49,070 nucleotides of DNA from Candidatus Onthomonas avicola (GTDB lineage Bacteria > Bacillota > Clostridia > Oscillospirales > Oscillospiraceae), in assembly GCA_018710845.1 (NCBI GenBank), contig DVJB01000016.1:1-49070 (forward strand), read 5' to 3'. The first letter of the stretch is position 1. Each line of letters opens with the position of its first letter. The position numbers and the translations under genes are program-made. The notes under the pieces are model-generated. The model did not search any database. It was not told where the DNA came from and saw only the letters and a program-made list of their open reading frames with translations. Shown piece after piece: positions 15,518 through 38,476 of the stretch.

Positions 15518-17773
15518 ATGAACAACTGGAAAGTCAAAGAGCCGCGTCAGGACCTGCGTTTTGAGATTGAGTTTACAAAGGCGTATCGGGACGCCGTCGC
15601 GGCGCATCAGCATCCGGCCGAGATTGAGCTGGCCTGCCTGCGGGCGCAGTACCCGGCCATCCTGATGCCGATTCAGGAGGAGGACGTGCTGGCAGGGCGC
15701 ATTCAGATGGGCCTGGTCGGCATGGGAATTCAGGGACAGACGGGGGGAACCGGCTACTATATCGACGAGCCCCGTGTGACCGAGGCGCTGGAGACGCAGA
15801 GCGGGAGCGCGAAATACCGGGAGGACCTGCACGACCTGCTCACATTTTGGAAGGGGCACTGCACCTACAACGTGGTGCTGGAAGAGACGCCCGCTGAGAT
15901 TCGCCGGGTCATCCCGACCGAGCAGTGGAAGACGCAGCCGGTCCCCGCCTCGCCCATCATCCGGATGGCCGGGGCCTATGTGGACTATGACCGTCTCCTG
16001 CGCGGCGGCATCTGCGGGCTGGAGGAGGAGGTCCGCACCGCCCGCGCCGCCGCGCAGCGGGAGGGGAGAGATGTCGTCATTTATGACTGCATGCTCGGCG
16101 CACTCGACCTGCTCCGGGATTGCTGCCGGTATTACCGGGACCAGGCGCAGCAGCTCTCGCGCGAGGCGAAGACACCGCGGCGCGCCAAGGAGATGTCCGA
16201 CCTGGCCAAGGCCCTGGAGCAGATCACCCTCCGTCCGCCGGAGAGCCTGCTCGAGGCGATGCAGCTGGCCTGGCTGTACTCCATGCTGGCCCAGCTGATC
16301 GAATTCGGGCGGATGGACGAATATCTGGGCGATTTTTACTGTCACGATATCGACTGCGGCGTCATCACCGAGGCAGAGGCGCTGAAGATGGTCCAGTCGT
16401 TCTACCGGCTGGTGGACCATCTGGACTGCGAGACGGACGGCCGGGTCATCGTCGGCGGCTATGGCCGGCGCAACCCGGAAAACGCCGACCGGTTCTGCCT
16501 GGTGGCGATCGAGGCCTGCCGGACGGTGCGCGAGATTCTGCCGCAGTTCACCCTGCGCTTCCACGCGGGGACGCCGAAGGAGATCTGGGAGGCCTCCATG
16601 CGCTGCATCGGGGAGGGACGGACCTATCCCCTGCTGTACAATGACGACGTGCTGGTGCCCGGGGTGATGGAGGCGTTTCATGTGGAGCGCGCGCTGGCCG
16701 AGCGATATATGCCGCTCGGCTGCGGGGAGATTGAGTTTGACCACTACAGCTTCGGCTCTCCGAACGGCTCGGTCAACACCCTCAAGATCCTGGAGCTGGC
16801 GATCCGGGGCGGCTATGACCCCATTGCGCACAAATACCTCTCCATTCCGACCACGCCGCTGGTGGAGTGCGAGACCTATGAGCAGTTTGTGGAGAACTAC
16901 AAGACCCAGCTGCACTACTTCATCTCCACGCAGGCAAAATATGAGAAGTACCTGTATGAGGCTATCGGCTCGCGTCACCCCTTCCTGCTTGTCAGCATGC
17001 TCTACGACGGCGTGATTGAGAAGGGACGCGGACTGCTCGACGGCGGCTGCGCCTATCTGGCGGGGACCATGGAGCTGTATGGAAATGTCAATGTGGCAAA
17101 CAGCCTCGCGGCCATTAAGCGGTGCGTGTTTGAGACCGGGCAGCTCACCAAACAGGAGCTGGTCGCGGCACTGGACGACAATTTCTACCGGCATGACCGT
17201 GTCCGCAAGCTGCTGATGGACTGCCCGAAGTACGGCAACGACGACGACTACGTGGACGGCATCTTTGTCCGCCTGCACAACTACCTGTGCGCGACCACCG
17301 CGGCGCAGGCGGAAAAGGTCGAACTGAAGAGCTACCTGAGCGTGACGATCAACAACAAGCAAAACACCACCCTCGGCCGCTGGGTGGGGGCGACGCCGGA
17401 CGGGCGCAAGGCGGGCACGCCGATGGCAAACGCTAACAACCCCGCCGCCGGGACAGACCACAACGGGCTGACCGCCATGCTCAACTCCATTTTGAAGCCG
17501 AGCCATGCCAACCACGCCGGCATGGTGCAGAATATGCGCTTTACCCGCGAGACCTGGAACGACCCCAAGATCCAGCAGCTGCTGCGCGAGTACTTCCAGC
17601 GCGGCGGCGCGCACGCAATGATCACCGTGGTGGGCCGGGACGACCTGAAAAACGCGATGGAGCGCCCGGAGGAATACAAGGACCTGATTGTCCGTCTGGG
17701 CGGCCTGAGCCTGCGTTATGTGGAGTTGAATAAGGATGTGCAGCAGGAAATCTATGACCGCACCACTTACTGA
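15518..17773 (+). CDS. Glycyl radical enzyme 1 (PFL-like, unassigned class)
   Basis: This 751-residue glycyl radical enzyme has the PFL-fold barrel. The catalytic thiyl residue is Cys402 in MPLGCGEIEFDHYS, with Glu404 at the +2 position used as base in eliminating GREs. The C-terminal radical loop is IVRLGGLSLRYVEL, with Gly729 aligned to the radical glycine. The usual RVxGYS is changed to RLGGLS. ATPDGRKAG and YGNDDDYVD are common GRE segments. The start ATG 15518 (GAGG 9 nt upstream) matches the paralogue at 30365 in sequence (MN-x-x-KVK). It is oxygen-sensitive and needs the activase that overlaps its end by 20 nt. PFL itself is excluded by the lack of its paired cysteines. The substrate is unknown, and a sugar or polyol derivative is inferred from neighbours. 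Confidence 0.9.
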   Translation: MNNWKVKEPRQDLRFEIEFTKAYRDAVAAHQHPAEIELACLRAQYPAILMPIQEEDVLAGRIQMGLVGMGIQGQTGGTGYYIDEPRVTEALETQSGSAKYREDLHDLLTFWKGHCTYNVVLEETPAEIRRVIPTEQWKTQPVPASPIIRMAGAYVDYDRLLRGGICGLEEEVRTARAAAQREGRDVVIYDCMLGALDLLRDCCRYYRDQAQQLSREAKTPRRAKEMSDLAKALEQITLRPPESLLEAMQLAWLYSMLAQLIEFGRMDEYLGDFYCHDIDCGVITEAEALKMVQSFYRLVDHLDCETDGRVIVGGYGRRNPENADRFCLVAIEACRTVREILPQFTLRFHAGTPKEIWEASMRCIGEGRTYPLLYNDDVLVPGVMEAFHVERALAERYMPLGCGEIEFDHYSFGSPNGSVNTLKILELAIRGGYDPIAHKYLSIPTTPLVECETYEQFVENYKTQLHYFISTQAKYEKYLYEAIGSRHPFLLVSMLYDGVIEKGRGLLDGGCAYLAGTMELYGNVNVANSLAAIKRCVFETGQLTKQELVAALDDNFYRHDRVRKLLMDCPKYGNDDDYVDGIFVRLHNYLCATTAAQAEKVELKSYLSVTINNKQNTTLGRWVGATPDGRKAGTPMANANNPAAGTDHNGLTAMLNSILKPSHANHAGMVQNMRFTRETWNDPKIQQLLREYFQRGGAHAMITVVGRDDLKNAMERPEEYKDLIVRLGGLSLRYVELNKDVQQEIYDRTTY

Positions 17774-18686
17774 CCGCTCCGGCCGGGCGCTGGTGTTCAA
17801 TATCCAGCGCGCCTGTATCCACGACGGGCCGGGGCTGCGCACGACCATCTTTTTTAAGGGGTGCCCGCTGCGCTGCATCTGGTGCCACAACCCGGAATCG
17901 CGCGCGCCGGTGCCGCAGCTCTCCTTTCAGGCGGACTTTTGCAGCGGCTGCCTGGCCTGCGTCGCGGCCTGCCCGAACGGCGCGCAGCGCGCGGTCCGGA
18001 CGGAGCAGGGCGTGATGCATACCGTGGATTTTGCGCGCTGCACCGCCTGCGGGGCCTGTACGGAGGTGTGCTGCTATGACGCGCTGTCCATCTCCGGGAC
18101 CTGGTATACGCCGCAGGAGCTGGTCCAGGCGCTGGAGCCGGACCGCGCGTGGATCCGGGACGGCGGGGTGACCCTCTCCGGCGGAGAGCCGATGGCGCAG
18201 TTTGACTTTCTCATGGCGTTTTTGCCGGAGCTGAAGGGGACGCATGTGGCGCTGGAGACCTGCGGATATGCGCCGACAGAACATTATGCGCGCATAGACC
18301 CCTATGTGGACCTGTATCTGTTTGACTACAAGGTGAGCGACCCGGAGAAACACCGCACGCTGTGCGGAACGGACAACCGGCTGATCCTGGAAAACCTCGA
18401 TTTCCTGTGCCGCCGGGGGGCGAAGGTGATTTTGCGCCTGCCGCTGATTCCGGGCGTCAACGACGACGAGGGGCATCTGCGCACGGTGGCGGAGCTGATC
18501 GAGCGCTATCCCGCGATCATCCGCGGGGAGATTCTCCCCTATCACAGTTTTGGAAAGGGGAAGGCGGCCGCGCATGGGCTGGACTATCCCCTGGGCGATC
18601 TGCCGGACGCGGACAAGGGAAAGGGGGAGGAATATCGGCAGCGGATTGCGCGCTGGGGAACGGATCGCATTATTGTAGCACAGTGA
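17754..18686 (+). CDS. Glycyl radical enzyme activase 1 (radical SAM)
   Basis: This 310-residue radical SAM protein generates the glycyl radical on GRE1. The SAM-cluster motif CxxxCxxC is Cys37, Cys41 and Cys44 (FFKGCPLRCIWCHNPE). A ferredoxin-like insert with two further 4Fe-4S motifs follows (CSGCLACVAACP and CTACGACTEVC), as in activases of dehydratase-type GREs rather than in PFL activase. GGVTLSGGEPM and LFDYKVSDPEKH are family signatures. The ATG at 17754 lies inside the end of GRE1 with AGGA 6 nt upstream, giving tight coupling. An ATG at 17736 is a less likely start. Confidence 0.93.
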   Translation: MTAPLTDRSGRALVFNIQRACIHDGPGLRTTIFFKGCPLRCIWCHNPESRAPVPQLSFQADFCSGCLACVAACPNGAQRAVRTEQGVMHTVDFARCTACGACTEVCCYDALSISGTWYTPQELVQALEPDRAWIRDGGVTLSGGEPMAQFDFLMAFLPELKGTHVALETCGYAPTEHYARIDPYVDLYLFDYKVSDPEKHRTLCGTDNRLILENLDFLCRRGAKVILRLPLIPGVNDDEGHLRTVAELIERYPAIIRGEILPYHSFGKGKAAAHGLDYPLGDLPDADKGKGEEYRQRIARWGTDRIIVAQ

Positions 18687-18721
18687 GAAAAGATATCAGA
18701 AGACGGAATGAGGGAAAGAAC

Positions 18722-19732
18722 ATGGAATCAAAGAATATTGTTTTTCCGCAGCGCGGGGAAGTGGCCCTGCTCTCACAGCCCATCGACCCGCCGGGACCGC
18801 GGGAGATTCAGTGCCGGGCGGAGGTCTCGCTCATCAGCATCGGGACGGAGCTGCGCTGCCTGCACGGCAGGCCGCAGGAGGGCACCAGCTGGAGCGGCTG
18901 GGTCAAATATCCCTTCCTGCCGGGCTACAGCATGGCGGCCACCGTGGTCGCCGTGGGCGCTGACGTGACGGAGTACCAAGTGGGCGACCGGGTTGCCGCG
19001 TTTCAGGAGCATACCCAATTCTTTAACGAGCCGGTGGACAACAACAAATTCCTCCACAAGATTCCCGACGGGATCGCGTTTGAAGAGGCGGCCTGGATGG
19101 GCATCGGCGGCTGCATCACCCAGACCTGCGCGCGGCGCAGCGAGCTGCACCTAGGCGAGTCCGTGGGTATCATCGGACTGGGCATGCTGGGCCAGATGAT
19201 CACGCAGTATATCCGCCTGATGGGCGCGGATGAGATCATCGCCATCGACGCCAATGCGAGCCGTCTGGAGATGGCCCGCCGGCATGGCGCGGACCACACC
19301 CTGTGTATGTATGCCCAGGACGCCATTGCCGAGGTCCGGCGCCTCACGGGCGGCCGGATGCTGGACGTGGTGTACGACGTCACCGGCCTGCCGCAGGTCC
19401 TCGCCAGCGCCTGCCAGATGGCCCGGAAGCAGGGGCGGATCATGGTGTCCGGAGATACCACCCGGACGGAGGCGCAGGCCGTGGGGCCGAACTTCCTGAA
19501 GGATTCGCTGAATATCTACGCCACCCACGCCGACAACGGCGCGGATGAGCGGTACTGGAACAAGCTGCGCATGGCGGACCTTTTCTACCGCTGCATCCTG
19601 CGCGGACGCATGGAGGTCAAGAGCATGAACACGGCCTGGTTCTCGCCGGCCGAGGCCCCGGAGGTCTACCGCTGGCTGCATGAGGACAAGCCGGACGCCA
19701 TGGGCGTGCTCTTTGACTGGACCAAGCTGTGA
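18722..19732 (+). CDS. MDR-family (zinc-type) alcohol dehydrogenase-like oxidoreductase
   Basis: This 336-residue medium-chain dehydrogenase/reductase has an N-terminal GroES-like domain (SLISIGTELRCLHG, GYSMAATVVAVGADV, YQVGDRVAAF) and a Rossmann fold (VGIIGLGMLGQM near residues 145-156, then IIAIDANASRLE). The cluster of four cysteines that binds structural zinc is absent, and the usual catalytic Cys-His pair is not obvious. It therefore resembles the BchC/threonine-dehydrogenase-like branch often found in sugar gene clusters. It probably oxidises or reduces a secondary hydroxyl of the pathway intermediate with NAD(P). The start ATG 18722 follows GAGGGAAAG. It lies 35 nt after activase 1. 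Confidence 0.85.
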   Translation: MESKNIVFPQRGEVALLSQPIDPPGPREIQCRAEVSLISIGTELRCLHGRPQEGTSWSGWVKYPFLPGYSMAATVVAVGADVTEYQVGDRVAAFQEHTQFFNEPVDNNKFLHKIPDGIAFEEAAWMGIGGCITQTCARRSELHLGESVGIIGLGMLGQMITQYIRLMGADEIIAIDANASRLEMARRHGADHTLCMYAQDAIAEVRRLTGGRMLDVVYDVTGLPQVLASACQMARKQGRIMVSGDTTRTEAQAVGPNFLKDSLNIYATHADNGADERYWNKLRMADLFYRCILRGRMEVKSMNTAWFSPAEAPEVYRWLHEDKPDAMGVLFDWTKL

Positions 19733-19742
19733 GGAGGAACGG

Positions 19743-20825
19743 ATGTCTCGAACATGGAAAATCGGCCTGATCGGCCTGGGCGCCATTGCCGGGCGCCACT
19801 ATGACGCGTTTTCCAAGCTGGAAAACGCCCGGGTCACAGCCCTGTGCACCCGCTCGGAGAAAAACCTGAAGGAGCACTGCCGCAAATGGGGCGTTGAGGC
19901 CGGCTATACCGACTACCGCCGGATGATAGAGGAGGCGGACATCGACGCGGTGGTGCTCACGCTGCCGCCCTATCTGCACCGCGAGGTCGCGCTGCTGGCC
20001 ATGGAGCACAAAAAGCATGTCTTCTGCGAAAAGCCGCCCGCACTCACCGCGGCCGAGGCGGAGGAGATGATGCAGTGCGCGCGGGAGAACGGCGTGCTGC
20101 TGATGTACGGCTTTATGTTCCGCTTTTCCAGAAAGCACAATCTCGGCCGGGAGATCATCCAGTCCGGCGTTCTGGGGGATATCCTCCTCATTCGGGAGGA
20201 GACCATCCGGCGCAACGCCTGCGCGGCGGGCTGGTTTGGACAGCGCGACCTGGCCGGCGGCGGACCGGTCATCGACATCGGCTCGCACTGTCTGGACCTG
20301 GCGCGCTATATGATGGGCAATGAGCCGGTGCCGGTGCGCGCCTACGCCCGGACGTTTGCGCCCTGCGAGAACCTGCAGAACCTGAAGGACTACCAGCACG
20401 GCTGGCCGACCTTCCTCTCCGACGCCGCGCCGGAATGCCGCTATGACGTGGAGGAGATGGGGGTGGCCATGATCCGCTACTCCAACGGCGCGGAGCTGCT
20501 GCTCGTGCTCTCCAACGCCAGCCATATCAAAGAGGACAAGAAGGTGATCGAGTTCATCGGCACCAAGGGCGGCCTGAGCGTGGACCCGGAGCTGGAGGTG
20601 CACACGGTGATCGAACACCGCCTGTTTAACATGCAGCCGGTGGTGGACTGCGCCTCCTTTGACTACCAGGGCTCGATTGACGCCGAGTGCGCGCACTTTG
20701 TCGACTGCCTCGAGAACGGGACCGCCTGCCGGGCGGATGCGCGGGACGGCTGGATTCTGATGAAGCTGATTGACGCGCTGTACGAGTCTGCCAGGACTGG
20801 ACAGGCGGTGGACATTTCCTACTGA
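19743..20825 (+). CDS. Gfo/Idh/MocA-family oxidoreductase 1
   Basis: This 360-residue sugar oxidoreductase has an N-terminal Rossmann fold (IGLIGLGAIAGRHYDAF, residues 6-22), the EKP motif as VFCEKPPALTAAEAEEM near residues 97-113, and the C-terminal alpha/beta substrate domain with GGGPVIDIGSHCLDL, in which His is a typical catalytic or binding residue. Members oxidise or reduce hydroxyls of cyclic sugars, inositols and glycosides with NAD(P). The start ATG 19743 has GAGGAGG just upstream, and the gene follows the MDR gene by 10 nt. Together with the TIM barrel and cupin further on, it could form a 3-keto-sugar route. The exact substrate is unknown. Confidence 0.88.
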   Translation: MSRTWKIGLIGLGAIAGRHYDAFSKLENARVTALCTRSEKNLKEHCRKWGVEAGYTDYRRMIEEADIDAVVLTLPPYLHREVALLAMEHKKHVFCEKPPALTAAEAEEMMQCARENGVLLMYGFMFRFSRKHNLGREIIQSGVLGDILLIREETIRRNACAAGWFGQRDLAGGGPVIDIGSHCLDLARYMMGNEPVPVRAYARTFAPCENLQNLKDYQHGWPTFLSDAAPECRYDVEEMGVAMIRYSNGAELLLVLSNASHIKEDKKVIEFIGTKGGLSVDPELEVHTVIEHRLFNMQPVVDCASFDYQGSIDAECAHFVDCLENGTACRADARDGWILMKLIDALYESARTGQAVDISY

Positions 20826-20844
20826 CCGGAGAGGAGGCAGCGCC

Positions 20845-22956
20845 ATGTATGACCCCGGACGGCACGCCTGGCTGCGGCAAAGGATCTATGAAAACGACGA
20901 CCAGGCCTGCTTTATTGAGCGCGAGCGCATTCTCCAGCGGCTGGACCGGACCTATTGCGGCTATCACGCCTATGACCGGGAGGCGAAGATCTTCTCCGAC
21001 CTGCTCGACGGCGTGAGCACGCCGGTGGACGGACATGACGTCATCGCCGGCCGGGTGCTGGAGGCCAGGCCGGACCCCGGGATGGGGCAGGCGCAGCGCC
21101 TGCGCTACCGGTACGGCGAGGAGGCCTGCCTGCGCGACTACCCGCAGGACACCTCGGTCACCTTTCCCAGTCCGCTGCTGTACTCCTTTGGACATATGAC
21201 CTATGACTGGGAGAAGCTGCTGGGCTGCGGCTACCGGGGCATTCTGGAGGAGATCGAGCAGGCGGCGGCCCGGCGCGGGGACCCGGAGTCCCTGCTCTAC
21301 CGCGACAACGCCCGACGGATCGTCGGCGCGGTCCGGCGCTACGCCGGGCGCTATGCCGCGGCCGCGCGCGAGGCGGGGAACGAACAGGCGGCGCAGGCGC
21401 TCTCCCGTGTGCCCTATGAGCCGGCCTGGGACCTCTACTCCGCCCTCTCGGCCATCTGGCTGGTGCATATGATCGCCAGCTGCTATGAGGGCGCGCGCGA
21501 TTTCGGATTTGGACGGTTTGACCAATATCTCTATCCCTACTACCGCCGGTCGCGGGAGGCGGGCATGAGCCGGGAGGAGGCGGTGGACCTGCTGTCCTAC
21601 TTCCTGCTCAAGCCCAACGAGATCTGCGGCAGGACGGTCTACAACGGGACCAGAAAGCCCACCCCCTGCCACACGAGCAAGCAATACCTCATTGTGGGCG
21701 GACCGGAGGTCAACGAGCTGTCGGAGGATGTGCTCCGGGCGGCGGCGCGCAACAACATGGCAGAGCCGGTGGTGACGGTGTTCTGGATGCGCGGACAGCC
21801 GGAGGCGTTTCACCAGTGCGTCTTTGAGACGATGAACACTGTGGCCGATAAGATGCAGGTCTATCACTTCGACCTGGTTCAAGAGGGTCTGCGCGACCGC
21901 GGCGTTCCCGAGCAATATATTCGGGAGCTGACCTATACCGGCTGCTGCAGCATGGAGTTCTCCCACCACAATACCAGAAATGAGTACTATCTCAACACCC
22001 CTCGGGTGCTCTGCGATCTGCTGGGCCTGCTCGAGGGGGGAGAGATGGCGGACTGCCGGAGCCTGGATGAGCTCTATGAGCGCTTTCAGGAGCGGTGCAC
22101 GGCCGCCATGCAGGATTACATCGACTATATCGTCCGGCTGTATGGAAAGGTCTACACCCGGCACAACGCGATCTTTGACGCGCTGCATGTGGCCAACTGC
22201 AACCGCGCCTGCCGCTACCCCGGCGAGGGAGGAGCCTTTCCGGTGCGGGTCTACAACGTGTTTCTGGCGGGGCTGGCCACGACGGCCGACTCCTTCCACG
22301 TCATAGACCGCCTGGTCTTCTGGGATAAGCGCTATACGCTCGGCCAGCTGCGCGAGATTCTGGCCGCCGACTATGCCGGGTATGAGGCGCTGCGCGCTGA
22401 AATTCTGGGGATGACCTTTTTCGGCAACGACGATGACGAGGCAGACGCCTATGCCGTGCGTACGGCAGGGGTGCTGCTGGACGCCTGTGACGCGGTCCGG
22501 ATTCCGGAGGAGACCTTCCTGATCGGCAGCTTCTACTGTCTCGACCGGAGCTACACCTATGGCCTGGAGCTGCCGGCGACGCCAAACGGGCGGCGTTTTG
22601 GGGAGTATATCAGTGAAAACCAATCCCCCTCCTACGGCGCCGCGCACAGCGGCGCGACCGCGGAGCTGCGCAGCCTGAGCAAGCTGCCCTTCCGCCGCAG
22701 CGGCGGAGGCGGGTACAATCTCACTCTCTCCCGCCGCCTGGAGACGGCCCAGCTGCGCGCGCTGATCGAGTCCTACTTTGAGATGGGAGGACTGCACGTG
22801 GGCATCACCTACGCCAACCGGGAGCAGCTGGAGGACGCGATGGAGCATCCGGAGCGCTATCCCGAGCTGACGGTGCGGCTGTATGGTTACAGTGAGTATT
22901 TCGTGAAAATGGACCGCTGGCAGCAGGAGGAATACCTGAAGCGGACAGCCTATTAG
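20845..22956 (+). CDS. Glycyl radical enzyme 2 (short, Cys-Cys active site)
   Basis: This 703-residue glycyl radical enzyme is divergent from GRE1 and GRE3 and shorter than most family members. The active-site region reads TYTGCCSMEFSHHN, with adjacent Cys367 and Cys368, an arrangement otherwise known from pyruvate formate-lyase. The Cys-x-Glu of eliminating GREs is not present in the normal register, although a Glu follows at +3 of the second cysteine. The radical loop TVRLYGYSEYF is conventional, with Gly681. The start ATG 20845 follows GAGGAGG. Its cognate activase lies 10 nt downstream. It may perform C-C cleavage rather than dehydration, but that is inference. Confidence 0.88.
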   Translation: MYDPGRHAWLRQRIYENDDQACFIERERILQRLDRTYCGYHAYDREAKIFSDLLDGVSTPVDGHDVIAGRVLEARPDPGMGQAQRLRYRYGEEACLRDYPQDTSVTFPSPLLYSFGHMTYDWEKLLGCGYRGILEEIEQAAARRGDPESLLYRDNARRIVGAVRRYAGRYAAAAREAGNEQAAQALSRVPYEPAWDLYSALSAIWLVHMIASCYEGARDFGFGRFDQYLYPYYRRSREAGMSREEAVDLLSYFLLKPNEICGRTVYNGTRKPTPCHTSKQYLIVGGPEVNELSEDVLRAAARNNMAEPVVTVFWMRGQPEAFHQCVFETMNTVADKMQVYHFDLVQEGLRDRGVPEQYIRELTYTGCCSMEFSHHNTRNEYYLNTPRVLCDLLGLLEGGEMADCRSLDELYERFQERCTAAMQDYIDYIVRLYGKVYTRHNAIFDALHVANCNRACRYPGEGGAFPVRVYNVFLAGLATTADSFHVIDRLVFWDKRYTLGQLREILAADYAGYEALRAEILGMTFFGNDDDEADAYAVRTAGVLLDACDAVRIPEETFLIGSFYCLDRSYTYGLELPATPNGRRFGEYISENQSPSYGAAHSGATAELRSLSKLPFRRSGGGGYNLTLSRRLETAQLRALIESYFEMGGLHVGITYANREQLEDAMEHPERYPELTVRLYGYSEYFVKMDRWQQEEYLKRTAY

Positions 22957-22966
22957 GAGGTGGCGC

Positions 22967-23881
22967 ATGGAGCGGGCGGCTGGCATGATCTTTGATATTC
23001 AGCGCTTTTGTCTGGACGACGGCCCGGGCATCCGCTCTACGGTCTTCTTGAAGGGCTGCCCGCTGCGCTGTCAGTGGTGTCACAACCCGGAGGGGTTGAC
23101 CCGGGAGCCGGCGCTCCTGTATGACGAGCGGCTGTGCAGCCGCTGCGGGGCCTGTGCGGCCGCCTGTCCGCGCGGATGCCACAGCGTCACGCCCGAGGGG
23201 GGCCACCGGCTGGAGCGCGGCCGCTGCATCGCCTGCGGCCGCTGCGTACAGGCCTGTCCCAATCGCGCGCTGGAGCTGGCCGGGCGGAGGCGGACCGTGG
23301 CGGAGGTGCTGGACGTCGTCTTGCGGGACCAGGTGTTTTACCGGCGCAGCGGCGGCGGGGTGACGGTTTCCGGGGGAGAGCCTCTCTTTCAGCCTGACTT
23401 TCTCCACAGCCTGCTCACGGAGCTGCACCGGCACGGCGTCCACACCTGCCTGGAGACCAGCGGATACGCCACCTGGACGGTGCTCGACCGGATCCGGCGG
23501 GAGACGGACCTGTTCCTGTTTGACATCAAGGAGACCGATCCCGACCGGCACCGGCAGGACACGGGGGTCCCGCTTCCCCCCATTTTGGACAACCTGGAGC
23601 GGCTGATGGACTGTGGGAGCAGGGTGATCCTGCGCTGCCCCCTCATCCCGCAGCACAACGCCAGAGACGGGCATTATATTGCCGTCGCCGCCCTGGCCAA
23701 TCGGCTGCCCGGCCTGGCCGGCATTGAGCTGGAACCCTATCACTCGCTGGGGCTGGCCAAGTGGCGCCGGACGGGACAAAATGCGCCCTATCACAACCCG
23801 AACGGCCTGCCGCCGGAGGAGGGAGAGCGGGCCGCCGAGATGATCCGGGCCGCGACAGCGGTCCCCGTGACGGTACATTAG
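22967..23881 (+). CDS. Glycyl radical enzyme activase 2 (radical SAM)
   Basis: This 304-residue activase has the SAM cluster motif at Cys31, Cys35 and Cys38 (LKGCPLRCQWCHNPE). The ferredoxin insert has two 4Fe-4S motifs (CSRCGACAAACP and CIACGRCVQACP). GGVTVSGGEP and LFLFDIKETDPDRH are family features. It is less similar to activases 1 and 3 than they are to each other, paralleling the divergence of GRE2. The start ATG 22967 has TAGGAGG 6 nt upstream, the first bases of which form the stop of GRE2. The cytoplasmic reductant would be flavodoxin or ferredoxin, neither of which is encoded here. Confidence 0.93.
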   Translation: MERAAGMIFDIQRFCLDDGPGIRSTVFLKGCPLRCQWCHNPEGLTREPALLYDERLCSRCGACAAACPRGCHSVTPEGGHRLERGRCIACGRCVQACPNRALELAGRRRTVAEVLDVVLRDQVFYRRSGGGVTVSGGEPLFQPDFLHSLLTELHRHGVHTCLETSGYATWTVLDRIRRETDLFLFDIKETDPDRHRQDTGVPLPPILDNLERLMDCGSRVILRCPLIPQHNARDGHYIAVAALANRLPGLAGIELEPYHSLGLAKWRRTGQNAPYHNPNGLPPEEGERAAEMIRAATAVPVTVH

Positions 23882-29370: not shown

Positions 29371-30337
29371 GCCCATCGAGATCAACCGGCTGATTCACGG
29401 CACACTGGCCTGTGACAGCGACCGGCAGGCGGAGGCGGACGCCCTGCTGGACGGGGTGCTGGCGCAGGGGTGCTATACCTTTGATACGGCGCATGGCTAC
29501 AGCGGCGGCCGGGGAGAAAAGGCGCTCGGCAATTGGATGAAAAAGCGCGGCAACCGCGGCGAGGTCTTTATTATCTCCAAGTGCTGCCACTACAACGAGT
29601 ATCGGCGGCGCCTGACGCCATATGATATCGGCAGCGACCTGCTCAATACGCTGGCCAAGCTGCAGAGCCCCTATGTGGACCTCTATATGCTGCATCAGGA
29701 TGATCCCGACGCGCCGGTCGGGCCGCTGGTGGAGGCTTTCTACGAGCATATCACAGCGGGCCGGATGCGCGCCTGGGGCGTGAGCAACTGGACCTGGCAG
29801 CGCGTGGAGGAGGCGATGAACTACGCCGCGCAGCATGACCTCATCCCCTGCGCTGCGGCGAGCTCCCACTACAGCCTGGCCGTGCAGTATGAAAAGGCGT
29901 GGGGCGGCTGCCCGTTTGGAGATGAGGGCGTGAGCGAGACGATCACAGGGGAGGATATGGCCGAGGCCCGGCGCTTTTTTGCGCAGACGCAGCTGCCGTT
30001 TTTCGCCTACTCCTCCCTGGGGCGCGGACTGCTCTCCGGCGCCTTTACGGCCGAGAAGCTGCGCGAACACCCGGAGTGCCTGGACCCCGCCGGGCGAAAG
30101 GCGTACTGTCACCCGCAGAATCTGGAGCGCCTGGAGCGCTGCGAGCGGCTGAGCCGGGAGAAGGGGTGCAGCGTCTCGCAGTTGGCGCTGGCCTGGATGC
30201 TGGCGCAGCCGATGAACCTGGCGCTGCTGGTGGGCGTGCGCACGCCGGAGGAGTACGCGGACGACGCGCGGGCCTTCTCCGTCTCGCTCACGCAGGCGGA
30301 GTGTGCCTGGCTGAACTTGGAATGTGACACGCTGTGA
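29336..30337 (+). CDS. Aldo/keto reductase
   Basis: This 333-residue (alpha/beta)8-barrel aldo/keto reductase has the complete catalytic tetrad Asp50 (FDTAHGY), Tyr55, Lys82 (IISKCCHY) and His120 (LYMLHQDD). It uses NAD(P)H to reduce an aldehyde or ketone, or runs in reverse. C-terminal VSQLALAWMLAQP and GVRTPEEY are cofactor-binding features. I choose GTG 29336 with AAGGGAGA 7 nt upstream; the earlier in-frame TTG at 29288 has no ribosome binding site. The gene overlaps the preceding one by 35 nt. It may act on the aldehyde product of a dehydratase-type GRE, which is inference. Confidence 0.9.
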   Translation: MDRTKIVIQGREPIEINRLIHGTLACDSDRQAEADALLDGVLAQGCYTFDTAHGYSGGRGEKALGNWMKKRGNRGEVFIISKCCHYNEYRRRLTPYDIGSDLLNTLAKLQSPYVDLYMLHQDDPDAPVGPLVEAFYEHITAGRMRAWGVSNWTWQRVEEAMNYAAQHDLIPCAAASSHYSLAVQYEKAWGGCPFGDEGVSETITGEDMAEARRFFAQTQLPFFAYSSLGRGLLSGAFTAEKLREHPECLDPAGRKAYCHPQNLERLERCERLSREKGCSVSQLALAWMLAQPMNLALLVGVRTPEEYADDARAFSVSLTQAECAWLNLECDTL

Positions 30338-30364
30338 CGGCCAGCGGAAAGGGGGATACATCTG

Positions 30365-32632: not shown

Positions 32633-33581
32633 GACGGCGCGTGTGCGCGCGGGGATGATCTTTGACATCCAGCACCTTGCCGTGCGCGACGGTCCGGGCA
32701 TCCGGACGTCCATCTTTTTCAAGGGCTGCCCGCTGCGCTGCATCTGGTGCCACAATCCGGAGAGCTACCTGTCCCGGCCGCAGCTGTCGGTGGACGCGTC
32801 CCTCTGCACCGGATGCCTGGCCTGCACGCAGGTGTGTCCGACAGGCGCCCATACCGCCGCGCCGGACGCAGACGGGCGGATGGCGCACGTGGTCTGCCAT
32901 GACAAGTGCATCGCCTGTGGGCGCTGCCTGGACGTCTGCTGCTATGACGCGCTCCATCTGATCGGCCGGCGGCGCACGGTGGACGACCTGCTCGAGGCGA
33001 TCCGCCCGGACCTGCCCTACTATGCGATTCCGGACCGCGACGGGGAGCGGGGCGGCGTGACGGTCTCGGGCGGCGAGCCGATGGCGCAGTTCTTGTTCCT
33101 GAAAGAGCTGCTCACTGCACTGCATGAGCGGGGGATCCATACGGCTCTGGAGACCTGCGGCTATGCCCCGACCGGGGATTATCAGGAGATCGCGCCGCTG
33201 GTGGACCTCTTTCTGTTTGACTACAAAGCCACCGACCCGGAGGAGCACCGCCGTTTTACCGGCGTGGACAACCGTCTGATCGGGGAGAACCTGCGCATGC
33301 TCTCCGAGGCCGGCGCGCGGATTGTGCTGCGCCTGCCGCTGATACCGGGGGTCAATGACAGCGAGGAGCATCTCGCCGGCATCGCCTCGGTGCTCAACCG
33401 CCATGCGGGCATCTGCCGCGCGGAGATCATGGGATATCACACCCTCGGCCTGTCCAAATGCGAATCCATCGGCGTACAGGCGGCGCTGACCGGCATCGAG
33501 CCGGCCAGCGCGGAGCAAAAGCAACTCTGGCAGGAGAAGATTACGCACTACGGCGCCCAAAAGCCGGTGCGGATCGGCTGA
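32613..33581 (+). CDS. Glycyl radical enzyme activase 3 (radical SAM)
   Basis: This 322-residue activase resembles activase 1, with the SAM cluster at Cys39, Cys43 and Cys46 (FFKGCPLRCIWCHNPE). The double 4Fe-4S insert is CTGCLACTQVCP and CIACGRCLDVC, and GGVTVSGGEPMAQFLFL and VDLFLFDYKATDPEEH follow. It should activate GRE3 and perhaps also GRE1. The ATG at 32613 has AGGAG 5 nt upstream, inside the GRE3 coding end. An internal ATG at 32655 is an alternative that would remove 14 residues not conserved in activase 2. Confidence 0.93.
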   Translation: MTGQPTETARVRAGMIFDIQHLAVRDGPGIRTSIFFKGCPLRCIWCHNPESYLSRPQLSVDASLCTGCLACTQVCPTGAHTAAPDADGRMAHVVCHDKCIACGRCLDVCCYDALHLIGRRRTVDDLLEAIRPDLPYYAIPDRDGERGGVTVSGGEPMAQFLFLKELLTALHERGIHTALETCGYAPTGDYQEIAPLVDLFLFDYKATDPEEHRRFTGVDNRLIGENLRMLSEAGARIVLRLPLIPGVNDSEEHLAGIASVLNRHAGICRAEIMGYHTLGLSKCESIGVQAALTGIEPASAEQKQLWQEKITHYGAQKPVRIG

Positions 33582-33615
33582 CCCTGCTGCAATTGAAACG
33601 TGGGAGGAATCAGAG

Positions 33616-35754
33616 ATGATGCGATACGGAAGCCAGTATTTTCGCCCGCCGCACCCGAAGCGTGAGGACTGGCGCGGCGATCTGGAGCATATGCGCGCCC
33701 TGGGGTTCAATACCGTCAAGCTCTGGGCCGTTTGGAATACGATTGAGCGGGAACCGGGGCGCTTTGACTTCTCCGATCTGGATGAGCTGGTCTCTCTGGC
33801 CGGGGAACAGGGACTGCAGGTGGTCATCAATCTCATCCCGGAGGGCGCGCCCTACTGGCTGGAGGCCGGGCAGGAGGACGCGATGTACACCACGGCCCGC
33901 GGGGAGAAGGTCACGTTTACCGGGGCGGAAAACATGCCCACAGCCGGCTGGCCCGGGCTGTGCATGGATAAGCCGGAGGTACAGCGCTATATCGAGCGGT
34001 TTATCCAGACCCTGACGGCGCACTACGCTCAGAACGAGACGGTGGCGGTCTTTGACGTCTGGAATGAACCCCACCTGGAGCCGATGTTTGCCTACCGGAG
34101 TGAGATTCTCTGCTACTGTGAGCACTCCGTCCGCACCTTCCGCCGGTGGCTGCGGGAGAAGTACGGCACGCTGGAGGAGCTGAACCGCCAGTGGTACCGC
34201 TGCTATACCGACTGGGAGCAGGTCAAGCCTCCGGTCCGGATGAGTACCTGCACGGACATGATGGACTGGCGGCTGTTCTGGCTGAGCAATCTGCGCCGCT
34301 GGCTGCGGATCCGAGTGGCGGCGGCCAAGCGCGGGGCGCCGGATAAACCGGTGCAGACACACGTGGCCTACAGCGCCATTGTGGGCAACCGCATTCAGGG
34401 CGGACTGTCCAACGAGGTGGTGGACGAGTTCCAGTTTGCACGGGAGGTGGATATCTTCGGCACGTCCGGGTTCCCCAAATGGCTGATGGGGGACCGCCAT
34501 GTGCTCTACCACCTGATGCAGACGGAGATCATCGCCGAGGCCGCGCGGGAGAAGCCGTTTTACCAGGTAGAGCTCCAGGGCGGCGGCGGGCGCAACGGCC
34601 TGCTGGGCACGGAGGTTCCCACGCGGCGGGACATCACGCTCTGGAACTGGAACACGCTGGCGGCCGGTGGAAAGGGCGTGCTCTACTGGCAGTACCGGGC
34701 GGAGCCGGCCGGCCTGGAGTCGCCCGGCTTTGGACTGGTGGGCTTGGCCGGGGAGGACACCGAGCGCTCCCTGGCGGCGGGCGCGTGCGCGCGGTCGCTG
34801 AGCGGCCCCGTGCTGGAGCGCGCGGTCCGCACCCTGCCGGTCAACGGCATCTATCTCTCCCGCACGTCGGAGGTGCTGTGCTACTGCAACGAGCGCCGGG
34901 AGGAGCTCTATGCGCAGAGTGTGACGGGGATCTATGAGGCGGCGTACCGGAGACGGATTCCGGTCCGCTTTGTCCATGCCGACTACGCGGACCGTCTGTG
35001 GGAGGAGGGCCTGCGGACCCTCTATCTGCCCATGCCGCTCTCGCTGAGCGAGCGCGAGGTGGACGCGCTGCTGCGCTTTGTCCAGGCGGGCGGCACGCTG
35101 GTCTCCGAGGCGTTCCCGGGCCTGTATGACGAGGGCGGACGCCTGGAGACGCGGAATGAGGCGCTGCGCGCGCTCTTTGGCCTGCGCCATATTGAGGTGC
35201 AAAACAGCCTGCACAGCGGGCCGATCGCCATCTATCCGTCGGACGGCTCGCCGGTCTGCCACGGACGGATGTACCGCCAGGCGGCGGCGCCGTGCGCGGC
35301 GGTGGAGACGCTGGCCAGCTTTGCCGACGGGCTGCCCGCAGTCACGGAGTACCGCAACGGGGCCGGCCGGGCAATCTGGATCGGCAGCTTCCTGTCCGGG
35401 CAGTATCATGACACGGAAGAGGCGGCGGCCGGAATGCTGCTGACCCGGTGGATGCGGCCGGAGGGCTATGCCTGCCTGGAGGAGATCTCGTGCCTCGGGC
35501 CGCAGGAGGCGTCCTGTTTCCAGCCGCTCGTGCGATTGCTGGAGACGCCGGAGCAGTGGGTGCTCATCGCGCTCAACCACACCCAGCGGGAGACCTGCCT
35601 CCGGGTTCGCTTCCGGGCGGGGAAGACCGCGCAGGGCGAGGCGTGCCACGAACTGCACCTGCCGCCCTCGGACGGCCGGTACGTACTGGTGAACAGACGC
35701 GCGGCCTGCCGCGCAGACGGAGAGAGGGGAGAGAAGTCCGATGAGGAGAAGTGA
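33616..35754 (+). CDS. Glycoside hydrolase family 42 beta-galactosidase
   Basis: This 712-residue enzyme has the GH42 architecture: catalytic TIM barrel (residues 1-390), trimerisation domain (about 400-610) and a small C-terminal beta domain. The acid/base is Glu151 in VWNEPH and the nucleophile Glu319 in YQVELQGG. GFNTVKLWAVWNTIEREPGRFDF-type spacing near residue 30 is typical. There is no signal peptide, so it acts on imported glycosides in the cytoplasm. GH42 enzymes release beta-galactose and sometimes alpha-L-arabinopyranose. Its place after the importer and GREs suggests that it releases the aglycone or sugar entering the radical pathway. It overlaps the isomerase gene by 14 nt. Confidence 0.92.
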   Translation: MMRYGSQYFRPPHPKREDWRGDLEHMRALGFNTVKLWAVWNTIEREPGRFDFSDLDELVSLAGEQGLQVVINLIPEGAPYWLEAGQEDAMYTTARGEKVTFTGAENMPTAGWPGLCMDKPEVQRYIERFIQTLTAHYAQNETVAVFDVWNEPHLEPMFAYRSEILCYCEHSVRTFRRWLREKYGTLEELNRQWYRCYTDWEQVKPPVRMSTCTDMMDWRLFWLSNLRRWLRIRVAAAKRGAPDKPVQTHVAYSAIVGNRIQGGLSNEVVDEFQFAREVDIFGTSGFPKWLMGDRHVLYHLMQTEIIAEAAREKPFYQVELQGGGGRNGLLGTEVPTRRDITLWNWNTLAAGGKGVLYWQYRAEPAGLESPGFGLVGLAGEDTERSLAAGACARSLSGPVLERAVRTLPVNGIYLSRTSEVLCYCNERREELYAQSVTGIYEAAYRRRIPVRFVHADYADRLWEEGLRTLYLPMPLSLSEREVDALLRFVQAGGTLVSEAFPGLYDEGGRLETRNEALRALFGLRHIEVQNSLHSGPIAIYPSDGSPVCHGRMYRQAAAPCAAVETLASFADGLPAVTEYRNGAGRAIWIGSFLSGQYHDTEEAAAGMLLTRWMRPEGYACLEEISCLGPQEASCFQPLVRLLETPEQWVLIALNHTQRETCLRVRFRAGKTAQGEACHELHLPPSDGRYVLVNRRAACRADGERGEKSDEEK

Positions 35755-36427
35755 GATCAACCGGGCGCTGCGGGAGCTGGAGGCGATGTGCGAGAAGCAC
35801 TCCTTCTATCTGCCCCCCTTCTGCCACATGACGCCGGAGGAGTGGCGCAAGGCCGGGCACGAGTATGACGAGGTGCGCGATTGCATGCTGGGATGGGATA
35901 TCACCGATTTTGGCATGGGGGATTTTGACCACCTGGGCTTCTCGCTCATCACGCTGCGCAACGGGTGCCGGGCGATGCCGGAACGCTATCCCAAGGTATA
36001 CGCGGAAAAGATTCTGTACCTGAAGGAGGGGCAGCGTGCGGCCAACCATTTTCACTGGTTCAAGACGGAGGACATCATCAACCGCGGGGGCGGAAATGTC
36101 CTCATCCGCGTCTATGCCTCCCGGGAGGACGAGTCGATCGACGAGGAGCGCGCGGTAGAGGTGCACCTGGACGGCCGCCGTATGGTGGTCCCGGCCGGCA
36201 CCCAGATCCGCCTGCGCCCCGGCGAGAGCCTCTGGGTGACCCGGAGACTGTACCATGACTTCGCGGTGGAGCCGGGCACCGGCCCCGTCCTGCTCGGGGA
36301 GGTCAGCCAGTGCAACGACGATCAGACGGACAACCGTTTCCTGCCGCCGGTGGGCCGCTTTCCCGAGATTGAGGAGGACGAGGCGCCATACCGCCTCCTG
36401 TGCAATGAGTATCCGCCGGCCCCGTGA
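35741..36427 (+). CDS. D-lyxose isomerase-like cupin ketol-isomerase
   Basis: This 228-residue protein matches the D-lyxose ketol-isomerase family (YdaE type). KILYLKEGQRAANHFHWFKTEDI, near residue 90-112, holds the metal-binding His-His-Glu set, and RRLYHDFAVEPG supplies the later His. Characterised members interconvert D-lyxose/D-xylulose and D-mannose/D-fructose. Here the isomerase, kinase and aldolase genes are adjacent, so an aldose-to-ketose step before phosphorylation is likely. Its true substrate may be a deoxy- or modified sugar. Ribosome binding site GGGGAGAG precedes ATG 35741. Confidence 0.9.
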   Translation: MRRSEINRALRELEAMCEKHSFYLPPFCHMTPEEWRKAGHEYDEVRDCMLGWDITDFGMGDFDHLGFSLITLRNGCRAMPERYPKVYAEKILYLKEGQRAANHFHWFKTEDIINRGGGNVLIRVYASREDESIDEERAVEVHLDGRRMVVPAGTQIRLRPGESLWVTRRLYHDFAVEPGTGPVLLGEVSQCNDDQTDNRFLPPVGRFPEIEEDEAPYRLLCNEYPPAP

Positions 36428-36492: not shown

Positions 36493-37638
36493 ATGGGAGG
36501 GAAGATCATCGCGGCGGGACATATCTGCCTGGATATCACCCCCGTGTTTTCCGAGCGGGACCGGTGCGGCGCGGTGGATGAGCTGCTGCGCCCCGGCAAG
36601 CTGATCTCCGTCCAGCCGGCGGAGATCCACGCCGGGGGCAGCGTGGCCAATACGGGGCTCGCCCTGAAGCTTTTGGGGGCGGACGTCCGGCTGATGGGGA
36701 AGATCGGGGACGATCTGTTTGGCGCGCTCGTGCGGGACTGCCTGCGCCGCCATGGCGGCGCAGATGACCTGATCGTCGACCCGGGCAGCTCCACCTCCTA
36801 TTCCATTGTGCTGGCGCCGCCCGGCATCGACCGGATTTTTCTGCACAATCCCGGCGCAAACGACACCTTTTCCGGCGGCGATATTCCGGACGAGGCGCTC
36901 ACGGACGCGGTCTGGTTTCACTTTGGCTACCCGCCGCTGATGCGCGGCATGTATGAAGACGGCGGGGCGGAGCTTGCCGCCCTGCTGCGGCGGGTCAGGG
37001 GACGCGGGATTGTCACCAGCCTGGACCTGGCCGCCGTGGACCCCGACTCGGCGGCGGGACAGGCGGACTGGGCGGAGATCCTCGCGCGCGTCCTTCCTCA
37101 GACCGATTTCTTCGTTCCGAGCTTTGAAGAGCTGAGCTTTATGCTGGACCGGCCGCGTCACGACGCGTTGGCGGCGCTGGGCGGAGATATGACCCGGCAT
37201 CTGAGCATGGAGCGGGACGTGAGACCGCTGGGACAAAAATGCCTGCGGCTTGGCTGCCGGGCCGTACTGATCAAATGCGGGCTCAGCGGCCTGTATTACT
37301 GCACCGCGGAGCGGACGTCTGTGGAGAAGATCGGTGGGCGGCTGACGCTGGATGCGGACCTCTGGGCGGGGAGAGAGGGCGTGCAGCCCTGCTTCCGGGC
37401 GGACGCGGTGCGCTCCGGCACCGGCGCCGGGGATGCCAGCATTGCCGCATTCCTGGCAGCGGTCATGCAGGGGAGAGCGCCAGAGACCTGCGCCGCTCTG
37501 GCGGCGGCGGAAGGTGCCTGCGCGGTCACGGCCTATGACGCGCTCGGCGGGCTCCGGCCATTGGACCAGCTGGAGGAGAGAATCGCCTCCGGCTGGGCGA
37601 TATTGCGAGGTGAGAGAGATGCTTGTCAACCTGAATGA
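36493..37638 (+). CDS. PfkB-family carbohydrate kinase
   Basis: This 381-residue ribokinase-fold kinase is longer than the usual ~310-330. The N-terminal IIAAGHICLDITP and EIHAGGSVANTGLALKLLGADV motifs bind sugar. The anion hole and catalytic base lie in GTGAGDASIAAFLA with Asp314. Extra residues around 205-245 (after FVPSFEELSFML) form an unusual insert. Starting at ATG 36493, with GGAGGG upstream, fits the family N-terminus. It overlaps the aldolase gene by 20 nt. It should phosphorylate the ketose made by the isomerase so that the aldolase can cleave it. The specific sugar is unknown. Confidence 0.9.
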   Translation: MGGKIIAAGHICLDITPVFSERDRCGAVDELLRPGKLISVQPAEIHAGGSVANTGLALKLLGADVRLMGKIGDDLFGALVRDCLRRHGGADDLIVDPGSSTSYSIVLAPPGIDRIFLHNPGANDTFSGGDIPDEALTDAVWFHFGYPPLMRGMYEDGGAELAALLRRVRGRGIVTSLDLAAVDPDSAAGQADWAEILARVLPQTDFFVPSFEELSFMLDRPRHDALAALGGDMTRHLSMERDVRPLGQKCLRLGCRAVLIKCGLSGLYYCTAERTSVEKIGGRLTLDADLWAGREGVQPCFRADAVRSGTGAGDASIAAFLAAVMQGRAPETCAALAAAEGACAVTAYDALGGLRPLDQLEERIASGWAILRGERDACQPE

Positions 37639-38476
37639 GATGCTGAGAAAAGCGCAGCAGGACCACTATGCCGTCGGCCTCTTCAACGCGGTGAATGTGG
37701 AGATGGCGAGGGCGGTCCTGGAGACCGCCGAAGAGATGAGAGCGCCCGTGATCGTGGGCACCGCCGAGATTCTGCTCCCGGCCATGGGTCTGGAGCGGGT
37801 GGCGGAATACCTGCTGCCGATGGCGGACAAGGCGTCAGTCCCCGTCTGCGTCCATTATGACCACGGCCTGTCCTTTGCCAGCTGCATGCAGGCCCTGCGG
37901 CTGGGCTTCACCTCCATCATGTACGACTGCTCCACCGACCGCTATGAGGACAACGTCGCCAAGGTGGCGCGGATGACAGAGATCTGCCACGCGATGGGCG
38001 TCACCGTGGAGGGTGAACTGGGACACGTCGGAAACAATACGCCTCCGGGGCAGGACGGCGGGCGCACGGACGATCCCAGCGCCTTTTATACCGACCCGGC
38101 GCTGGCGGAAGATTATGGAAAGCGAACCGGCGTGGACGCCCTGGCCATCGCAGTGGGGAACGCGCATGGGGACTATCCGTTCCCACCCAAGCTGGATTTT
38201 CAGCGGATTGCGGAAATTGCCGGCCGCACTGCCGTGCCTCTGGTGCTCCACGGCGGCAGCGGCCTCTCAGAGAATGACTTCCGCACGGCCATAGGCAGCG
38301 GTATCTGCAAGGTGAACATCTTTACGGAACTGGATAAGGCCGGAAAGGCCGGCGTGGAGGAGGGACTCGCGAAGGGCGCCAGGACCATGATGGAGCTCAT
38401 TCCCTACGAGATCGCGGCGATGAAGGCGGTGGTGCGGGATAAGATCTCCCTGTTTGGCTCAGCAGGCCGCGCGTGA
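37619..38476 (+). CDS. Class II ketose-(bis)phosphate aldolase
   Basis: This 285-residue zinc aldolase is of the FbaA/GatY/IolJ type. HYDHG (His79, Asp81, His82) provides metal and catalytic residues. VEGELGHVG holds the conserved glutamate, and AVGNAHGDYPFPPKLDF and VLHGGSGLSENDF contain the other zinc histidines and the phosphate loop. It cleaves a ketose phosphate to a triose phosphate and an aldehyde. It may prefer fructose-, tagatose- or a deoxy-keto-sugar phosphate; IolJ of the inositol pathway is in the same family. The ATG at 37619 has GAGGTGAGAG upstream. It is the last gene of the run. Confidence 0.92.
   Translation: MLVNLNEMLRKAQQDHYAVGLFNAVNVEMARAVLETAEEMRAPVIVGTAEILLPAMGLERVAEYLLPMADKASVPVCVHYDHGLSFASCMQALRLGFTSIMYDCSTDRYEDNVAKVARMTEICHAMGVTVEGELGHVGNNTPPGQDGGRTDDPSAFYTDPALAEDYGKRTGVDALAIAVGNAHGDYPFPPKLDFQRIAEIAGRTAVPLVLHGGSGLSENDFRTAIGSGICKVNIFTELDKAGKAGVEEGLAKGARTMMELIPYEIAAMKAVVRDKISLFGSAGRA

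Follow-up and report, generated by a model that had tools for sequence, protein, structure and literature searches.

A 19-gene candidate sugar operon of Candidatus Onthomonas avicola encodes three glycyl radical enzymes, two of them from a clade tied to a sugar importer and a GH42 glycoside hydrolase

Glycyl radical enzymes (GREs) are known mostly from small substrates such as choline, diols, hydroxyproline, sulfonates and arylacetates, with the anhydrohexitol phosphates as the sugar case. According to an excerpt of PMC12441222, YbiW and PflD cleave 1,5-anhydroglucitol-6-phosphate and 1,5-anhydromannitol-6-phosphate to 1-deoxyfructose-6-phosphate, a radical C–O cleavage within a sugar pathway; a second partial source (PMC11528403) describes aminoacyl radical enzymes, uncharacterized GRE homologues of anaerobes, some of which are encoded in pairs. 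Here we analyze a 49,070-nt contig of Candidatus Onthomonas avicola (DVJB01000016.1; hereafter the window), in which 19 co-directional genes on the + strand (15518–38476) include three GREs, each with its own radical S-adenosylmethionine (SAM) activase. A preliminary description of the window had proposed a radical-based sugar pathway for this run. Literature searches limited to open-licence PMC papers returned no description of a cluster with this composition.

The run begins with GRE1 and its activase, a medium-chain dehydrogenase/reductase (MDR), the Gfo/Idh/MocA oxidoreductase GfoA, GRE2 and its activase, a TIM barrel, a cupin and a solute-binding protein, and continues with two permeases, a second Gfo/Idh/MocA oxidoreductase (GfoB), an aldo/keto reductase (AKR), GRE3 and its activase, a glycoside hydrolase of family 42 (GH42), a lyxose-isomerase family protein, a PfkB kinase and a class II aldolase (Table 1). 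With starts chosen at ribosome-binding sites, the run has the limits given in the preliminary description, and its 18 junctions comprise seven overlaps and 11 gaps of 6–96 b. Eighteen genes were typed by Pfam and the aldolase by NCBIfam, giving the same families and order as that description. All three GREs have the features of the superfamily, namely both domains (PF02901 and PF01228), a finger-loop cysteine, a radical glycine and an adjacent activase, and each activase matches TIGR02494 and carries CxxxCxxC plus two ferredoxin-type cysteine motifs. The radical site is glycine in each, rather than Ala, Ser or Thr, and each GRE has an activase of its own, in both respects differing from the aminoacyl radical enzymes, a class to which we therefore did not assign them.

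None of the three GREs belongs to a family characterized in the libraries used, since NCBIfam cut-offs are widely missed and identity to reference enzymes is low. The best NCBIfam match is the subfamily TIGR01774 (288, 197 and 290 bits for GRE1, GRE2 and GRE3, against a cut-off of 678.2); the GRE equivalogs score lower, against cut-offs of 994–1150, and the short GrcA models reach at most 57.6 bits against 145–170. Assignment to CutC, HypD, HpsG/HpfG, IAD, HPAD or pyruvate formate-lyase (PFL) was rejected on these scores. Five references were compared (YbiW, PflD and PflB of E. coli, Parabacteroides HypD and Klebsiella CutC): GRE1 and GRE3 are 25–29% identical to them and GRE2 25–30%, the highest figure covering only 249 residues of PflB. 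A clustering of all three GREs with a characterized family, which would have spoken against the preliminary description, was seen neither in a tree with the five references nor by NCBIfam cut-offs.

GRE1 and GRE3 are 63% identical and share the catalytic loop GCGEIEFDHYS (C402 and E404 in both), with radical glycines at G729 (loop GGLS) and G733, respectively. The CGE form of the CxE motif is kept throughout alignment A2 (14 rows, GRE1 and GRE3 among them), and CxE also occurs in CutC, HypD, YbiW and PflD. Like GRE1 and GRE3, YbiW and PflD have their own activases, and ybiW has an aldolase gene nearby; radical C–O cleavage in a sugar pathway is a further likeness that we propose here. They differ in a phosphorylated substrate fed by the phosphotransferase system (PTS), in their branch of the tree, and in a pocket histidine that aligns with glycine in GRE1 and GRE3, as does the histidine of HypD. 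Membership of GRE1 and GRE3 in the YbiW or PflD families was rejected, given 25–28% identity and a position outside their branches. The link between PflD/YbiW and 1,5-anhydroglucitol-6-phosphate that the preliminary description mentioned is real (PMC12441222, in part; PDB titles 8id7 and 8id0), but it does not extend to these two enzymes by family. Glycerol and 1,2-propanediol dehydratases, CutC and HypD share with GRE1 and GRE3 the fold, the thiyl cysteine, the CxE motif and, probably, elimination chemistry; in contrast to these eliminases, GRE1 and GRE3 lie far below the family cut-offs tested, GRE2 has no such glutamate, and no microcompartment family occurs among the 18 operon genes put to Pfam.

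The tree consisted of 48 hand-picked rows. Automatic picking, which required a particular glycine loop, [RK]T at the C-terminus and a length above 450 aa, missed rows, of which L057 was put back manually; numerous GREs that were nearly identical or clearly different were left out, as were L110–L124, which were fetched afterwards. GRE1 and GRE3 fall in a 19-row clade (support 100/100) that contains none of the five references and whose catalytic loop reads GCGE. Within it, GRE1 groups with eight loci showing one such GRE each (100/99), and GRE3 groups weakly with L065–L067 (90/50). Because the two sit in different branches (GRE3's being weakly supported), we rejected a recent tandem duplication as unlikely; instead, two lineages of this module seem to have come together in the window.

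Close relatives of this clade in Spirochaetes and Bacillota form a conserved module: AraC regulator, GRE, activase, solute-binding protein, two permeases and GH42. A contig scan with the GRE3/GRE1 alignment found 12 loci (nine spirochaete records, one Defluviitaleaceae, one Gemmiger and one Bacteroidia metagenome-assembled genome), and the order from GRE to GH42 is complete in nine of them. Two contigs (L071 and L073) end before GH42; at L076 (45% identity) a GH130 lies upstream and no importer was recognized within its 5.9 kb. When 394 genomes from the class of L074 were searched, 13 had matches at E ≤ 1e-120; three of these were new and close (L116–L118), six were more distant and the other four had been found before. 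Among the 14 close relatives (L065–L075 and L116–L118; 57–71% identical to GRE3 or GRE1), 12 have a divergent AraC homologue (35–43% identical) beside the GRE, the exceptions L068 and L118 having 420 b or no upstream DNA. The solute-binding protein (42–47% identical) and first permease are likewise present in 12/14, L073 and L117 ending too early, and GH42 is present in nine of the ten whose DNA passes the second permease; in the tenth, L118, an open reading frame with a GH2-type sugar-binding domain and a ROK regulator take its place. L074 also has a GfoA homologue (45%) directly after GH42. The search across genomes suggested in the preliminary description thus links the GRE1/GRE3-type gene, in more than one phylum, to a sugar ABC importer and GH42. 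At L067, the Sphaerochaeta module, a sulfatase (18380–19804) directly follows GH42, a hint of a sulfated substrate there.

More distant clade members, whose neighbors were typed in part, give a mixed picture. A GRE on plasmid pPP4 of Persicobacter psychrovividus (L088; 40% identical to GRE1 and 41% to GRE3; loop GCGEYVLNHRSFGTP) is preceded by a phytanoyl-CoA dioxygenase-family gene and followed by its own activase, with a GH20 5 kb on and a sulfatase, deoC and rbsK 13–17 kb on. The phytanoyl-CoA dioxygenase family is of the O2-dependent type, and this succession of dioxygenase and GRE (17230–21124) possibly represents oxic and anoxic routes for one substrate. L119 has a DUF2961 protein and ABC permease homologues nearby, and L123 lies near a ribose-type ABC system and a protein whose GH9 match falls just short of the Pfam cut-off (26.6 vs 27.7 bits).

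Building on the observed genes, motifs, conserved module and phylogeny, we infer the chemical steps, regulation and substrate as follows. We consider it somewhat probable that the operon serves the anaerobic catabolism of an imported, unphosphorylated carbohydrate under AraC control, with GRE1 and GRE3 as C–O-cleaving radical eliminases. The substrate, probably a beta-glycoside or polyol-containing saccharide, would enter through the ABC importer, and its glycosidic bond would be split by GH42. Each activase would use SAM to generate a radical at the glycine loop of its partner GRE; from there it would move to Cys402 in GRE1 and GRE3, the resulting thiyl would abstract hydrogen from a C–OH carbon while Glu404 helps to deprotonate, and a neighboring C–O bond (hydroxyl, ring ether or glycosidic oxygen) would be eliminated to give a keto-deoxy or ring-opened sugar. 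The Gfo/Idh/MocA, MDR and AKR enzymes may then adjust the oxidation state, the TIM barrel and cupin may process keto-sugar intermediates, and triose phosphate and a small aldehyde could result from the action of the lyxose/mannose-type isomerase, PfkB kinase and class II aldolase. GRE2 would add a further, different step with its Cys-Cys-Ser loop. Elimination by GRE1 and GRE3 is suggested by CxE, by gene context and, weakly, by the fold match. The radical sugar pathway first proposed is supported in part, by a set of GREs outside the characterized families tested and placed within a sugar-catabolic run; the three may act in one pathway.

The best PDB match of GfoA is DgpA1 (E 2.9e-36), which we take to be a C-glycoside oxidoreductase, and the nearest solved structures to the TIM barrel are 8tcs/8tcd, presumably with a role in 3-keto-glycoside cleavage. 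Together they point no further than to a keto-sugar intermediate being oxidized and cleaved. GfoA scores 144.1 bits with IolG (cut-off 355), 129.6 with levoglucosan dehydrogenase (NF052479; 650) and 52.6 with NF058561 (750), and the only NCBIfam match of the TIM barrel is IolE (36.5 bits vs 290). DgpA-type and levoglucosan/glycoside 3-dehydrogenase pathways combine a Gfo/Idh/MocA enzyme with a TIM barrel; the scores here are far below curated cut-offs, and we know of no such pathway with GREs. GH42 matches structure 9ta3, and its catalytic-type glutamate motifs (DVWNEPH and ELQGG) are both kept in the window and nine relatives. The lyxose/mannose isomerase family protein reaches 257.8 bits with NF051472 (cut-off 350), and the PfkB kinase 58.5 bits with IolC (cut-off 300).

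Several observations weigh against the proposed eliminase unit. CxE occurs in GRE decarboxylases too, so the motif does not prove elimination, and the change from histidine to glycine suggests that substrate handling by GRE1 and GRE3 differs from that of YbiW, PflD and HypD. Foldseek places glycerol dehydratase (1r8w, first), HypD and propanediol dehydratase among the top five matches of the GRE1 model but is unspecific: many known GRE types are among the matches, and YbiW, at rank 13, has a TM-score of 0.67, as high as any listed. The model itself is moderate, with a mean predicted local distance difference test score (pLDDT) of 69.8 and residues 399–417 and 698–751 below 50. Among distant clade members, L052–L054, L059, L060 and L122 have no homologue of the window's sugar genes, and those of their neighbors put to Pfam are not sugar genes: L052 adjoins an AMP-binding enzyme, L059 MatE and metallo-beta-lactamase proteins, and L122 a peptidase U32; L120 lies by HD/GAF and HTH proteins and L057 by glycosyltransferases. 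Context points to carbohydrate without telling which one.

Transcription signals also argue for caution. Positions 15500–35499 hold 14 promoter-like matches, against a mean of 3.9 in shuffles (sd 2.0), five of them on the + strand, including one just ahead of GH42 (33593–33620); the scan found no + strand promoter-like site ahead of GRE1. With so many internal promoter-like sites, separate transcription units are possible, and a single transcript for the 19 genes is putative. The excess of terminator-like matches in the same interval is less clear (15 vs 9.2 in shuffles, sd 3.4). A strong hairpin between the solute-binding protein and the first permease (Table 1) looks as if made for more binding protein than permease.

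GRE2 is set apart by its loop GCCSME (C367, C368 and S369; radical G681), in which the CxE glutamate is absent. A GRE2-type search found matches at E ≤ 1e-60 in 5/391 genomes of the class, its own included; G031, a genome of another family, also carries a GRE2-type relative. The five-row GRE2 clade (100/99) has the loop [GA]CC[STC] throughout, with no Glu two residues past the thiyl cysteine, and a sixth, more distant member (L085) has GCNRAE. With Ser, Thr or Cys in place of Glu, GRE2 should not carry out classical CxE elimination, and the Cys-x-Glu motif of a CxE eliminase was not found in it. GRE2 shares with E. coli PflB two adjacent finger-loop cysteines, but its first cysteine aligns with the catalytic cysteine of CutC and the second of PflB, which puts the pair one residue out of the PFL register; on register and low score, PFL was rejected for GRE2. 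The mean pLDDT of its AlphaFold model is 48.3. No GRE2 orthologue was found in 24 same-genus genomes (drafts, 61–100% completeness), where the best match is E 1.3e-45 at 30% identity and short C-terminal pieces reach 39%, or in the genomes of 11 of the 12 GRE1/GRE3-scan loci, ten of which have GRE matches at E ≤ 1e-20, all ≤32% identical.

Multi-GRE clusters recur, at least three further loci (L062, L083 and L084; Table 1) having one, and the earlier statement that there is usually one GRE per pathway is better put more softly. Relatives of GRE2 stand beside other GREs in three of five cases (L082, L083 and L084). At L083, three GREs accompany a GH36-like protein, an SGL (lactonase-type) protein, an MDR and a GH43, with a XylB-type xylulokinase (411.8 bits > 380.25) and a DeoC-type deoxyribose-phosphate aldolase (229.4 > 117.3) over their cut-offs; at L082, two GREs occur with an SGL and an FGGY kinase domain; and at L084, three GREs follow an IclR regulator, with no sugar gene among the six neighbors typed. 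L085 has a neighboring GH38, three TIM barrels on the other strand and no second GRE, and in G031 (L006/L017/L018) the GRE and activase are the two genes typed. The carbohydrate tie of the GRE2 clade is accordingly weaker than that of GRE1 and GRE3. L062, from G011, a sibling within the window's genus, has an ABC importer, an AKR, two GRE/activase pairs of other types, an FGGY kinase, a PfkB kinase, a class II aldolase and two more AKRs; the clusters at L083 and L062 both have genes for sugar kinases, aldolases or glycosidases beside them. Another pair of GREs (100/100) at L082 (7445–9601) and L063 (9277–11442) has the loop HPCNW[PA]DIDGG, without CxE, and at L063 Gfo and TIM-barrel homologues adjoin the GRE.

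A bolder proposal is possible but doubtful: in a previously undescribed route, two or three different GREs may work one after another on a single imported carbohydrate, removing hydroxyl, ether or glycosidic oxygens by radical elimination before phosphorylation, and the GRE2 clade may stand for a GRE type with a new mechanism. Even the glycosidic bond might be cut by GRE1-type enzymes, through radical elimination at C2.

Alternatively, the GREs could dehydrate a small diol or polyol (glycerol-like, pentitol or hexitol) that GH42 frees as an aglycone, and not the sugar ring, the product aldehyde being reduced by the AKR or MDR. Besides its first place in Foldseek, glycerol dehydratase 1r8w is among the better sequence matches of GRE1 (221.9 bits) and GRE3 (221.3 bits), the relatives' modules, which contain only importer, GH42 and GRE, would suffice for a glycosylated polyol, and the presence of DeoC and a kinase near both L083 and L088 is consistent with a pentitol giving a deoxy-pentose. 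We nevertheless regard this as unlikely: even the better of the two TIGR01774 scores misses the cut-off of this subfamily, which includes the glycerol dehydratases, the histidine shared by YbiW, PflD and HypD is replaced by glycine, and neither a microcompartment nor an iron-type alcohol dehydrogenase family is present among the 18 genes put to Pfam.

The YbiW relationship raises another option, that GRE1 and GRE3 are ether-cleaving lyases of unphosphorylated anhydro-hexitols or anhydrosugars, as an ABC-fed counterpart of the PTS-fed pathway in which YbiW and PflD open 1,5-anhydro rings (PMC12441222, in part; 8id7, 8id0). Among solved structures, YbiW comes closest to GRE1 in sequence (226.5 bits), and it has the highest blastp score of the five references. 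In E. coli, the genes for YbiW and its activase neighbor the aldolase gene fsaA, and an aldolase gene likewise closes the operon here; GfoA matches the levoglucosan dehydrogenase model, though far below its cut-off. However, by identity to GRE1 YbiW has no lead over CutC or HypD (27, 27 and 26%), CutC scores slightly above YbiW for GRE3, and both enzymes lie outside the YbiW branch, which makes this option quite improbable. A radical analogue of inositol (cyclitol) catabolism, which would retain the Gfo enzyme, IolE-like TIM barrel, cupin isomerase, IolC-like kinase and class II aldolase but rely on GREs in place of the ring-opening and dehydration steps, would account for IolG as the best NCBIfam match of GfoA and for the IolE and IolC matches; it is very improbable, as all three scores are far below cut-off, no IolD- or IolB-type match occurs among the genes scanned, and the lyxose/mannose isomerase points to an aldose. 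That the GREs are ordinary pyruvate or 2-oxobutyrate formate-lyases kept for fermentation balance is scarcely credible, as GRE1 and GRE3 have CGE rather than the PFL cysteine pair, the GRE2 pair is offset and TIGR01255 scores are 91, 67 and 93 bits against 994, even if the genome has no other PFL-type GRE with both domains and PFL function would otherwise be missing.

The window is contig C66 of a 2.39-Mb genome (rated completeness 100) with four PF02901 matches: GRE1, GRE2, GRE3 and a 434-aa protein on contig C8 (around 107750–109054; L021 7751–9055) with a partial PFL-like domain, no glycine-radical domain and no other Pfam match. PF01228 also has four matches; among those listed, one lies outside the window (C29), has no PF02901 match and is, we infer, a class III ribonucleotide reductase. 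The operon is flanked by a gene behind a T-box that we take from its sequence to be valS and by what are presumably spoIIAA/AB and sigF. From its spo0A gene (Table 1) we read the host as a spore former, and it is presumably an anaerobe. The valS–spoIIAA distance is 25.9 kb in the window vs 2.3 kb in G011 (valS 86% identical); three other same-genus stretches have spoIIA, with valS absent from the fetched DNA, and no homologue of the 19 operon genes was found in these four stretches. Within the genus, the run reads as an accessory island. No microcompartment shell protein was found among the 18 operon genes put to Pfam, the other window open reading frames having been scanned partly. Two adjacent Sel1-repeat proteins lie at 1190–4846.

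Table 1. Features of the window, in operon order, and multi-GRE clusters at other loci (bits are profile scores)
Feature	Position	Strand	Evidence or remark
spo0A	6811–7632		Pfam Spo0A_C
T-box leader	11180–11395		116.9 bits; upstream of gene read as valS
AraC-family regulator	14154–15092	−	divergent from operon; Pfam HTH_18, AraC_binding
GRE1	15518–17773	+	PF02901 325.7 bits, PF01228 67.8 bits; alignment A2; tree
Radical SAM activase of GRE1	17754–18686	+	TIGR02494 293.4 bits > cut-off 174.35; CPLRCIWC and two Fe-S Cys motifs
MDR zinc-type dehydrogenase	18722–19732	+	ADH_zinc_N; below all listed NCBIfam cut-offs
GfoA, Gfo/Idh/MocA oxidoreductase	19743–20825	+	Pfam; nearest solved structure DgpA1
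GRE2	20845–22956	+	PF02901 204.8 bits, PF01228 66.6 bits
Radical SAM activase of GRE2	22967–23881	+	TIGR02494 327.2 bits; Cys motifs
Xylose-isomerase-like TIM barrel (AP_endonuc_2)	23898–24710	+	Pfam; nearest PDB 8tcs/8tcd
Small cupin	24707–25024	+	Cupin_2; start uncertain, candidates 24701–24713
Sugar ABC solute-binding protein	25109–26449	+	SBP_bac_1
13-pair hairpin then T-run	26485–26515	+	consensus scan; between solute-binding protein and permease
ABC permease 1	26546–27460	+	BPD_transp_1
ABC permease 2	27457–28287	+	BPD_transp_1
GfoB, second Gfo/Idh/MocA oxidoreductase	28294–29370	+	Pfam; 30% identical to GfoA over 201 residues
Aldo/keto reductase	29336–30337	+	Aldo_ket_red 151.5 bits
GRE3	30365–32632	+	PF02901 352.7 bits, PF01228 71.4 bits
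Radical SAM activase of GRE3	32613–33581	+	TIGR02494 305.9 bits; Cys motifs
GH42-family glycoside hydrolase	33616–35754	+	PF02449 168.5 bits (cut-off 21), PF08532 43.5 bits
D-lyxose/D-mannose isomerase family protein	35741–36427	+	PF07385 314.8 bits (cut-off 20.8)
PfkB-family sugar kinase	36493–37638	+	PF00294 83.5 bits; no NCBIfam cut-off reached
Class II ketose-bisphosphate aldolase	37619–38476	+	TIGR00167 248.2 bits > 215.6
Multi-GRE cluster, L083	5862–18020		three GREs
Multi-GRE cluster, L084	8932–19901		three GREs
Multi-GRE cluster, L062	7512–13594		two GREs

The loop of GRE2 represents an active site unlike those aligned here, and the compact modules of the GRE1 and GRE3 relatives make their substrate directly testable. 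With a GRE clade linked in both Spirochaetes and Bacillota to a sugar ABC importer and a glycoside hydrolase, the reach of radical chemistry would extend into the mainstream of carbohydrate breakdown in anaerobes.

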